The position numbers were made by a program, and so were the translations under genes. A stretch of 64,000 bases of DNA from the NCBI GenBank assembly GCA_020725545.1, contig DYEV01000008.1, forward strand, positions 1 through 64,000, given 5' to 3'. Every line of letters begins with the position of its first letter. Positions within the stretch are counted from its first letter, which is position 1. The stretch comes from Desulfobacca sp. GTDB lineage: Bacteria > Desulfobacterota > Desulfobaccia > Desulfobaccales > Desulfobaccaceae. The notes under the pieces were generated by a model, which worked only from the letters and a program-made list of their open reading frames with translations, made no database searches and was not told the origin of the DNA. Shown one piece after another: positions 2,139 to 31,363 of this stretch.

Positions 2139-2214
<76 letters not shown>

Positions 2215-29223: not shown

Positions 29224-29574
29224 ATGAGCAACGTCATCCCTTTCAGCGAATTGAGCCGCCAGCACCGCTTGAATCTCCTGGATCATAAGCGGCGGGAATA
29301 CCAGGAACGGGAAAATTACCTCAACCGCCTGCGCAAACTGCTCTTTCAGGTGGAGGGTCAGATGCGCCAGGCCGAACTGGAGCAGATGGAACTCTACCAC
29401 GCCGTCTTGGCCGGTTTTGATATCCAGGTCAATTTCCCCAACCTGGGGGATCGCATCGGCCTACAGCGCCTTTTCCGGGAACACCCGGCCCTCATGACTT
29501 TGACCGCCTTCCTGGAAGAACGGCTCAGTCCCGAGGAATGCTACGAACGCCTCATGCAGTTGAAAAAGGAGTAG
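29224..29574 (+). CDS. conserved hypothetical protein, coiled-coil
   Basis: 116 residues, starting MSNVIPFSEL at ATG 29224. Residues about 15-65 are a long amphipathic helix rich in Arg, Glu and Leu, likely coiled coil. The C-terminal half is helical with no motif I recognise. The upstream in-frame extension (29152) has poor coding character. Function unknown. Confidence 0.65.
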   Translation: MSNVIPFSELSRQHRLNLLDHKRREYQERENYLNRLRKLLFQVEGQMRQAELEQMELYHAVLAGFDIQVNFPNLGDRIGLQRLFREHPALMTLTAFLEERLSPEECYERLMQLKKE

Positions 29575-29624: not shown

Positions 29625-29661
29625 AAAAAAAAATGACCGGATGGGGGAGGCATCCGGTCAT
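29625..29661 (-). terminator. intrinsic terminator of RNA unit 1
   Basis: An 11-bp perfect stem with a 7-base loop, followed on the minus strand by nine consecutive T. Confidence 0.88.
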
Positions 29662-29734
29662 CGGAGTGGGGGAGAATCTCACTATAAACTTCGATTAAGG
29701 GGGGATTGGGGGGTCCTTAATGGTTCATAGTTGC
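29625..29734 (-). ncRNA. candidate sigma-54-dependent small RNA, unit 1
   Basis: About 110 nt on the minus strand from a predicted +1 G at 29734. A 5' hairpin pairs ACUAUGAAC with GUUUAUAGU and AUUAAGG with CCUUAAU around a loop ACCCCCCAAUCCCC. It is followed by the unpaired stretch UUCUCCCCCACUCC. The RNA ends in a perfect 11-bp terminator stem (AUGACCGGAUG/CAUCCGGUCAU) with loop CCUCCCC and a run of nine U. It has no reading frame. The C-rich loops are complementary to Shine-Dalgarno sequences. A -24/-12 promoter lies at the right distance. A homologous unit lies at 30016-30126. Confidence 0.7.
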
Positions 29735-29744
29735 TTTTATCTAT

Positions 29745-29761
29745 TGCAGGTCTTATGCCAA
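29745..29761 (-). promoter_or_regulatory. sigma-54 promoter of RNA unit 1
   Basis: Minus strand TTGGCATAAGACCTGCA, with GG and GC exactly ten bases apart. It predicts initiation at G 29734. The same arrangement stands before unit 2. Confidence 0.65.
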
Positions 29762-30015
29762 CCTCCCGACAAATGCCCGCCAATCCATATTAATCAATAT
29801 TATCAAGAGACTACCAGACTGCGGCTCGCCCCTCCGGCAAAGCCCCGAGTATAAATTTTTGAACCGGCCAACCCGATATTGACGGCAAAATCGGTCCGAC
29901 TCAATCTATCTGCATGAATTAACTTTATATTTTGTGGTAAAAGAATTTGGCCCGGACCGGCCCTTTGAACAGTTTTTTGAACCGGGTGTTGGTTGCCGGA
30001 ACTCACTCCTGGCCA

Positions 30016-30053
30016 GAAAAAAAGCTGACCGGACGGGGGAGCATCCGGTCAGC
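30016..30053 (-). terminator. intrinsic terminator of RNA unit 2
   Basis: A 12-position stem with one C:A or G:U-type irregularity and a C-rich loop, followed on the minus strand by TTTTTTT. Confidence 0.85.
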
Positions 30054-30126
30054 GGGGGTAAGGGGAGAAAATGGTTTATGAACTCTGTTAAGGGGGGATG
30101 GGAAACCTTAAGTGTTCATAACTGCC
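30016..30126 (-). ncRNA. candidate sigma-54-dependent small RNA, unit 2
   Basis: About 111 nt on the minus strand from a predicted +1 G at 30126. The layout matches unit 1: a 5' hairpin (UAUGAAC/GUUCAUA and UUAAGG/CCUUAA), unpaired UUCUCCCCUUACCCCC, and a terminator stem GCUGACCGGAUG/CGUCCGGUCAGC with a C-rich loop and seven U. Between copies, a G:U pair becomes G:C in the first stem, and an A:U pair becomes C:G at the base of the terminator stem, which supports the fold. Confidence 0.7.
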
Positions 30127-30136
30127 TTTTTATTAA

Positions 30137-30153
30137 TGCACAGGCCGTGCCAA
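30137..30153 (-). promoter_or_regulatory. sigma-54 promoter of RNA unit 2
   Basis: Minus strand TTGGCACGGCCTGTGCA. The -24 element TTGGCACG is a perfect consensus match. GG and GC are ten bases apart. It predicts initiation at G 30126. Confidence 0.72.
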
Positions 30154-30412
30154 AAACGAGAGGGGCACCAAACTATTTTATTCTTCAAGTATTTTCAGCG
30201 AGTTGGATGATATTCGGGGCTCGCCGGCTCGGGGCTGCGCCTTGGGGCTGGTACAATAATTTGAACCGGTTGGTGGTCTATTCCCGTTGGCCCTGGCCAT
30301 CCTACTGATATTGTTTCAGAACCCCTGGTTTAATTTTTTTGCCGCCAAAATGGCAAATTTGGTCGACCCTGCCTTGGGCTGCCCCCCCCCAACCGCTGCC
30401 GGGCCGCCTCTC

Positions 30413-31363
30413 TTATCCAGCTGTTCTGGTCTCCCGGCCCTGCCCTTCCAGAAAGCGGACCAATTGGCAGACCGCGTCATTGTAAGGGGTGGCCAGCCCC
30501 AGTTCCCGGGCATAGCGGCAGATGGCGCCGTTGAGGGCCTCGATCTCGGTCTGCCGGCCATGTTGCAGGTCCTGGAGCATGGAAGGGTAATGGGCGGCGG
30601 TGGGCGGTACTAGGTTGGTGAAAAAATGGCGGCAATAGTCCGTGGCCGTGGCCTGCAGCAGGTGCACCCCTTTGGCGGTGGCCACCGTGTACATCTCGGC
30701 GATGAGGGCTTCCATGAGCTGCCGGGTGTGGGGATTGGCCGCCAGTTCGCCATAGGTCACCCCCAGGATGGCCCCCAGGGGGTTGAGGGCGCCGTTGTAC
30801 AGGACCTTGGCCCAGAGATGGGGTATAATATCCTGGACTACGGCGGTGGGAATGCCGGCCTGGTGCAGATGGCCGGCCACCTGCGGGAGGCGGGGCGGGG
30901 CCGCGGCCGGCTGCGGCAGGCCCAGGAGGACCTTATCGGCATAGACGGTGACGGTGGCTACGCCCGGCCGGCTGATCCGGGCGCCGAAGATGACCCGGGC
31001 TCCCACCGGCGTGGCCGCGGGGCACTCGTGGGCGATGGTTTCCAGGTTGCCCAGACCGTTCTGGATGGAGACGATCAGGCCGTGGGGCTGCACCAGGTCT
31101 TTGATCTGCCGGCAGGCGGCCTGGGTGTCAAAAGATTTGACACAGAGCAGGACGACGTCATACCAGTGGCGGGCCCCGGCGGGCGGGACGGGCACCGGCC
31201 CCAGGTGCACCTCGCCCCAGATGCCGTCGATGTTCAGACCCTGGTGCCGGAGGGCGTCGAAATGCGCGCCGCGGCCCAAAAAATCCACGTGGTGACCGGC
31301 CCGCCGCAGCAGGCCGCCAAAGACTGTCCCCAGGGCCCCGGTGCCCATAATCAGATAGCCCAT
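30413..31363 (-). CDS. panE: 2-dehydropantoate 2-reductase
   Basis: 316 residues, an NADPH-dependent ketopantoate reductase of pantothenate synthesis. The N-terminal dinucleotide motif MGTGALGTVFGGLL, the segment VLLCVKSFDTQAA, the catalytic Lys region PHLWAKVLYNGALNPLGAI and the helical C-terminal domain (PSMLQDLQHGRQTEIEALNGAI in parts) are typical. Its start codon is only eight bases from that of the divergent HTH-Zn gene, so the two promoters must overlap the opposite coding regions or one message is leaderless. Confidence 0.92.
   Translation of the reverse strand: MGYLIMGTGALGTVFGGLLRRAGHHVDFLGRGAHFDALRHQGLNIDGIWGEVHLGPVPVPPAGARHWYDVVLLCVKSFDTQAACRQIKDLVQPHGLIVSIQNGLGNLETIAHECPAATPVGARVIFGARISRPGVATVTVYADKVLLGLPQPAAAPPRLPQVAGHLHQAGIPTAVVQDIIPHLWAKVLYNGALNPLGAILGVTYGELAANPHTRQLMEALIAEMYTVATAKGVHLLQATATDYCRHFFTNLVPPTAAHYPSMLQDLQHGRQTEIEALNGAICRYARELGLATPYNDAVCQLVRFLEGQGRETRTAG

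Follow-up and report, generated by a model that had tools for sequence, protein, structure and literature searches.

What are the two similar minus-strand units of about 110 nt that lie between a ketopantoate reductase gene and a small hypothetical gene in the window (the whole stretch of 64,000 nucleotides analysed here), and what might they control? The comparisons described below identify the pair as two copies from a new family of small regulatory RNAs, which probably turn down outer-membrane proteins in response to some signal. Promoter, enhancer motif, structure, strand, conservation and complementarity are all supported by sequence comparison, and from these we infer transcription of the RNAs, duplex formation in the cell, repression and the targeting of a porin. 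To our knowledge, few small RNAs of known function come from sulfate-reducing Desulfobacterota. Here the whole predicted circuit (enhancer, sigma-54 promoter, structured RNA and named targets) can be read from sequence throughout an order and partly beyond it.

Layout of the locus

A first-pass annotation made from the letters of this DNA had placed both units on the minus strand, at 29625-30153. When promoters and RNAs were located again on the sequence, the coordinates and the strand of both units proved correct, and the claimed spacing of ten bases between GG and GC was found in both promoters. What had been overlooked are two enhancer-like palindromes (30267-30250 and 29865-29848); because these sit upstream of the promoters, the element really spans approximately 29625-30267. 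The description of the units as a tandem pair is accurate for the window, with its two units, but does not hold as a general rule, since many relatives have one copy. The features are as follows, with positions counted along the window.

30413..31363, minus strand: flanking gene for ketopantoate reductase (panE/apbA; Pfam PF08546 and PF02558), the upstream neighbour, outside the system
30250..30267, minus strand: UAS of unit A, the enhancer-like palindrome GGTTCAAATTATTGTACC, at a distance of about 141 nt upstream from the RNA; top motif score in 857 kb of the window's own genome (27.7 bits)
30137..30153, minus strand: sigma-54-type -24/-12 promoter of unit A, TTGGCACGGCCTGTGCA, identified by sequence and of a type kept in 64 of 65 homologous copies
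30017..30126, minus strand: small RNA A, about 110 nt, with 5′ hairpin, CU-rich linker and terminator; fold z -7.8, covariance model 93.7 bits
30088..30098, minus strand: seed of RNA A, UCCCCCCUUAA, in the 5′ hairpin loop and the 3′ strand of its stem; perfect match of 11 bp to the porin Shine-Dalgarno sequence
30057..30074, minus strand: CU-rich linker of RNA A, CCAUUUUCUCCCCUUACC, matching over 9 bp site 1 of the porin leader (UUUCUCCCC) and over 11 bp the ribosome-binding site of rpoD (CCAUUUUCUCC)
30017..30053, minus strand: terminator hairpin of RNA A (loop CUCCCCC) and T-run, from fold and alignment
29848..29865, minus strand: UAS of unit B, the enhancer-like palindrome GGTTCAAAAATTTATACT, at a distance of about 131 nt upstream from the RNA; second motif score in the 857 kb (25.8 bits)
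29745..29761, minus strand: sigma-54-type -24/-12 promoter of unit B, TTGGCATAAGACCTGCA, identified by sequence
29625..29734, minus strand: small RNA B, about 110 nt; fold z -6.4, covariance model 97.8 bits
29695..29705, minus strand: seed of RNA B, UCCCCCCUUAA, which with the following U gives a perfect match of 12 bp to the porin Shine-Dalgarno sequence
29663..29678, minus strand: CU-rich linker of RNA B, GAUUCUCCCCCACUCC, of which UUCUCCCCC matches porin leader site 1 (9 bp)
29625..29661, minus strand: terminator hairpin of RNA B (loop CCUCCCCCA) and T-run, from fold and alignment
29224..29574, plus strand: flanking conserved hypothetical gene of about 117 aa, without Pfam match, convergent with unit B and followed by hisI on the other strand; this neighbourhood is conserved at the family locus in relatives

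Distribution and paralogues

A search at the DNA level detected the RNA family in 26 of 59 relatives, all of them within the window's own order. Searching the relatives with a covariance model built from 35 copies showed that the family is conserved: it is present in all 29 genomes examined from the order Desulfobaccales, to which the window, from a Desulfobacca, belongs, with one to a few copies each, and a sample of 297 genomes of the phylum gave a single borderline match outside the order. Matches of 20-mers in genomes of Gastranaerophilales and Bacteroidota reached a covariance score of 21 bits at best and were treated as chance. The locus itself is conserved too, being flanked by a panE or hyuA-like gene at one end and by a small hypothetical gene with hisI and hisG at the other.

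From the weaker matches of the covariance model emerged a second paralogue, which is shorter (about 80 nt) and lacks the 5′ hairpin. Most genomes of the order have it between nagZ and a heptosyltransferase gene; in the window's own genome, a search at nagZ showed it to be absent there. This short paralogue is preceded by a sigma-54 promoter of its own and by the palindrome that also lies upstream of the long RNA type, and in part of the genomes an NtrC-type response regulator is encoded near its locus. A third relative occurs in three genomes (G142, G114 and G194) of another family of the phylum, outside the order, and adjoins a glyA-like gene in G142, the one genome examined for neighbours. 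It has two copies of the enhancer palindrome upstream of its -24/-12 promoter, and such a promoter is present in all copies of both the short paralogue and the third relative.

Promoter and upstream palindrome

The promoters take the form TTGGCAC or TTGGCAT, with GC ten bases after GG, and the RNA starts 11-12 bases later. With both strands of the 64 kb window counted, the pattern TGGCA-N8-GCA turns up only seven times, the promoters of units A and B included. That the promoters are of the sigma-54 type, as had been proposed from the two copies, is borne out by comparison: a -24/-12 promoter stands at the right distance from the RNA in 64 of 65 copies, while the upstream and flanking DNA diverges, and it is found in both paralogue types. 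We infer from this that transcription of the RNAs depends on sigma-54 (rpoN). A search of the 857 kb read from the own genome (29% of the total) turned up neither the rpoN gene nor an rpoN box.

Counting 8-mers in the upstream regions revealed the palindrome GGTAYAA-N4-TTGAACC, again in both paralogue types. An 8-mer resembling TTGAACCG occurs in 34 of 38 and in 22 of 24 upstream regions, where approximately 2.5 would be expected, and the palindrome site is present in 60 of 62 loci, in most cases starting about 106-141 nt upstream of the RNA. In the 857 kb, the two palindromes of the window take the two highest motif scores, and scores of 25.1, 28.3 and 28.5 bits were obtained for the copies from the other family, although the motif had been built without them. 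Being shared, the palindrome implies one putative enhancer-binding activator and provides strong evidence that it is common to the RNA genes. Two activators of the GAFTGA type were seen in the 857 kb, neither of which could be linked to the RNAs.

RNA structure and strand

Read on the minus strand, both units consist of a 5′ hairpin, a CU-rich single strand, a GC-rich terminator and a T-run. Compared with dinucleotide shuffles, units B and A fold with z-scores of -6.4 and -7.8 (0 of 200 shuffles were as good), whereas the plus-strand readings fold less strongly (z -3.8 and -3.9). The observation that pair substitutions preserve the stems, initially read off the two copies in the window, is confirmed by covariation across 35 homologues. 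More specifically, the named structure pairs in 94.0% of the cells of their alignment, which none of 500 shuffles equalled, and eight pairs are changed on both sides. The terminator stem has the strongest support (97.9% paired, with double changes in five pairs) and the outer 5′ stem moderate support (88.6% paired, with double changes in two). In the minus-strand reading there are 40 G-U pairs versus 17 A-C mispairs, an excess that is expected for a minus-strand RNA, and the T-run and the sigma-54 promoter both lie on that strand.

Two other readings of the units bear on these observations. The functional RNA could be transcribed from the plus strand and bind CsrA through GGA loops, in the manner of CsrB/RsmZ; the loops do read GGGGGAGG on that strand, and the plus-strand folds are still better than those of shuffles. 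However, the sigma-54 promoter, the enhancer spacing and the T-run are on the minus strand in nearly every copy, and since fold strength and G-U excess favour this strand as well, a CsrA-type RNA was rejected as extremely improbable. A short peptide encoded from the AUG in the 5′ hairpin has an equally slight chance of being correct. Some relatives have an ORF of about 11 codons at this place, but in the window and in the genus a stop codon closes the frame two or three sense codons in, in other relatives the frame is likewise closed by a stop or shifted by indels, and the AUG itself sits in a stem without a Shine-Dalgarno sequence; with the frame broken in many copies, the peptide was rejected too.

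Complementarity to outer-membrane protein genes

The C-rich stretches of the units had been noted as possible anti-Shine-Dalgarno elements, and they do match ribosome-binding regions of outer-membrane protein genes beyond background; target prediction from these stretches led to a porin, a second beta-barrel-like protein and rpoD. The invariant seed of the RNA, CCCCCCUUAA, is complementary to the Shine-Dalgarno sequence of the porin gene, and the extended seed, including UUAA, is also invariant among the RNAs. The porin gene is present in 25 of the 29 genomes of the order, including the window's own, where the protein matches Pfam Porin_2 above cut-off. Its leader contains three conserved G-rich tracts, of which the last, UUAAGGGGGGAA, is the Shine-Dalgarno sequence. 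In relatives, each tract is matched by one of the three C-rich patches of the RNA, the order being antiparallel; one example has 11, 11 and 9 perfect pairs. In the window's own genome, the Shine-Dalgarno sequence is matched by 11 (RNA A) and 12 (RNA B) pairs, and the first tract by 9 pairs in both RNAs. If one mismatch is tolerated, the complement of the linker turns up at rpoD and, in several relatives, in front of a porin-like gene, within its 5′ leader. A long complementarity of the linker to a single target (GAAAGGAGAAAATGG) was also considered and dropped, as the exact matches listed comprised only the RNA genes themselves.

How specific these matches are depends on the background. In the 857 kb, TTAAGGGGGG has four occurrences, namely the two RNA complements, the porin Shine-Dalgarno sequence and one elsewhere. 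Over the whole of the own genome, the pattern TTAAGGGGGG-N2-7-ATG is found twice, before the porin and before the second beta-barrel-like protein (Pfam OMP_b-brl match below cut-off); both genes retrieved are outer-membrane-like. The occurrence before the porin could simply be the Shine-Dalgarno sequence of that gene. The 30 loci retrieved for the same pattern include 19 clear ORFs, 17 of which begin like a signal peptide, versus 11% in the background; this enrichment stems largely from orthologues of two families (the porin and the beta-barrel-like protein).

A further comparison used 752 leaders, taken from the ORFs that a simple caller predicted in 29% of the own genome. The porin leader is the only one of them that has a run of at least 11 bp together with a separate run of at least 9 bp, and this for both RNAs. 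Ranked by co-folding gain, it is first for RNA A and fifth for RNA B, with the second beta-barrel-like protein at ranks 16 and 47; plain RNAduplex energy, calculated without self-structure, puts the porin at rank 131 of 752 and does not discriminate. Relative to shuffled porin leaders, the co-folding gain shows no more than a moderate advantage, with z-scores of about -2.3 to -3.1 in six tests, and of -1.5 and -0.9 for genome G020. Much of the gain survives shuffling of the leader, which means that part of it is due to G-richness. RNAs paired hardly better with the porin leader of their own species (-23.0) than with those of others (-22.2), so no clear sign of co-evolution within species was seen.

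The rpoD ribosome-binding site (AAGGAGAAAATGG then ATG; contig C20, L302:9886-9900) is complementary to 11-14 bases of the RNA linker in several genomes, and the rpoD leader is second of the 752 in co-folding gain for RNA A; the stretch that matches the linker is also a good ordinary Shine-Dalgarno sequence. Several further leaders of this set carry matches of at least 11 nt to the RNAs. Also on contig C20 (L306, minus strand, around position 424), a receiver-domain response regulator has the ribosome-binding site AGTGGGGGAGAA, which is perfectly complementary to 12 linker bases of RNA B only.

Matches of this kind raise the question of whether the porin is a dedicated target at all. The sigma-54-dependent RNAs might act as general anti-Shine-Dalgarno elements that damp translation by pairing loosely with many G-rich sites, including that of rpoD, and three redundant C-rich patches per RNA would fit such a role, as would the rank of rpoD and the additional leaders just mentioned. 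We consider this rather unlikely, because the UUAA-extended seed is invariant and its complement is rare in the genome outside the two outer-membrane protein genes, and because the two porin-leader tracts other than the Shine-Dalgarno sequence are also conserved and matched in the right order. Base pairing could, on the other hand, be secondary to the titration of a protein of the C-rich-binding or cold-shock type, comparable to that of Crc/Hfq by CrcZ/CrcY, a family known for multiple copies, sigma-54-driven expression and repeated single-stranded motifs, as seen here. This has a decidedly low probability, given that target leaders match the motif as a specific 10-mer, which is no A-rich repeat, and that no Hfq match (PF17209) was found in the 99.96% complete own genome; of the control genomes, 5 of 14 were positive.

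Relation to known small RNAs

The first-pass annotation had found no named family with this layout. In agreement with this, an Rfam scan of both units gave no family at gathering score, and permissive thresholds yielded only chance-level or analogous matches; in the whole window, a tRNA at 2142-2214 (minus strand) is alone in reaching the gathering score of its Rfam family. The literature was also searched, and no description of this sigma-54 RNA family was found.

LhrC of Listeria (RF00616, LhrC1-5), which comes closest in layout, has a 5′ stem-loop, CU-rich motifs in loop, single strand and terminator loop, multiple copies and an envelope target, whose Shine-Dalgarno sequence it covers while its stem A opens on binding (PMC4132741). 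The window RNAs resemble it in their two stem-loops with a single-stranded joint, in the CU-rich motifs of loop A, linker and terminator loop, in being multicopy, partly tandem and apparently controlled by a signalling system, and in their predicted envelope-protein targets, approached via the Shine-Dalgarno sequence. They differ in the seed (CCCCCCUUAA), in the phylum (Desulfobacterota versus Firmicutes) and in control, which is exerted by LisR of the LisRK two-component system there and points to a sigma-54 promoter with a distinct palindrome here; against RF00616, the two units score 21.8 and 17.9 bits, far from the gathering score of 110 (E 1.4 and 8.4). By analogy, the window RNAs are thus LhrC-like in their predicted mode of action without being members of the LhrC family, and the independent arrival at a design with three C-rich patches suggests a recurring solution for the control of surface proteins.

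The Cuckoo/CcsR RNAs of Alphaproteobacteria likewise expose C-rich anti-Shine-Dalgarno motifs in stem-loops and occur in tandem copies, but their defining CCUCCUCCC motif is absent from both window RNAs, and they have other promoters and belong to another phylum. Several similar small RNAs under one enhancer-binding protein with sigma-54 are known as Qrr in Vibrio and CrcZ/CrcY in Pseudomonas. The window RNAs share with these the -24/-12 promoter at a fixed distance and the upstream activator site, whereas sequence and structure are unrelated; moreover, Qrr needs Hfq and CrcZ titrates Crc/Hfq, and in the window's genome Hfq was not found. In enterobacteria, an alternative sigma factor or a two-component system drives MicA, RybB and OmrA/B, which block the translation of outer-membrane proteins; these are under sigma-E or two-component control with sigma-70, Hfq-dependent and unrelated in sequence, unlike the sigma-54-type RNAs described here. 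Within the sulfate-reducing bacteria, Dv_sRNA2 of Desulfovibrio vulgaris is a small RNA of unrecorded function and a target of the response regulator DVU0679 (PMC3333781). As far as its description goes, it is similar in being a small RNA controlled by a response regulator in a sulfate reducer, but adjoins its own regulator gene, whereas the regulator of the window RNAs is a putative enhancer-binding protein.

Proposed mechanism

We think it likely, judging from the sequences compared, that an enhancer-binding protein and sigma-54 switch on multicopy RNAs which block the translation of outer-membrane proteins. In this scheme, an activator of the sigma-54 enhancer-binding type would, on a signal, bind GGTAYAA-N4-TTGAACC about 130-140 bases upstream and, together with sigma-54 polymerase, start transcription 11-12 bases downstream of the GC in the -12 box. 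The RNA would fold into 5′ hairpin, CU-rich linker and terminator, leaving three C-rich patches exposed that could pair with the G-rich tracts of target leaders. The seed CCCCCCUUAA in the 5′ loop would open its own stem and cover the Shine-Dalgarno sequence of the porin mRNA, while linker and terminator loop would reach the upstream tracts of the porin leader in antiparallel order. Ribosome entry would thereby be blocked, and the porin, the second beta-barrel-like protein and possibly rpoD turned down. As Hfq was not found, pairing may proceed without it or with the help of another chaperone.

A more far-reaching version, which we put forward as a doubtful extension, is an Hfq-free envelope circuit common to the order, in which one activator and sigma-54 would drive two multicopy classes of small RNA, porin leaders would be clamped at three sites and translation of RpoD would be damped. 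If true, such a circuit would link an envelope signal to outer-membrane remodelling and to a shift in sigma-factor use. The circuit read from sequence as such makes concrete predictions for the cultured species Desulfobacca acetoxidans DSM 11109, which has one copy of each RNA type and a porin with the same leader.

Further sites in the genome

On contig C29 of the window's own genome, at about 39.1-39.4 kb (L290:19090-19400), a copy of the palindrome found upstream of the RNAs (24.4 bits) is followed 112 bases downstream by a sigma-54-like promoter. Both precede a non-coding stretch of about 230 nt that ends in a terminator, upstream of an RNase R-like gene, and this stretch is possibly a third RNA of the same regulon. 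On contig C16, an 18.4-bit palindrome and a -24/-12 site (L277:19530-19640) lie upstream of a gene for a secreted protein. The same contig encodes an NtrC-type response regulator (L280:12784-14130) whose AAA+ loop reads GAFTDA instead of GAFTGA, and whose leader is fourth of the 752 in co-folding gain for both RNAs.
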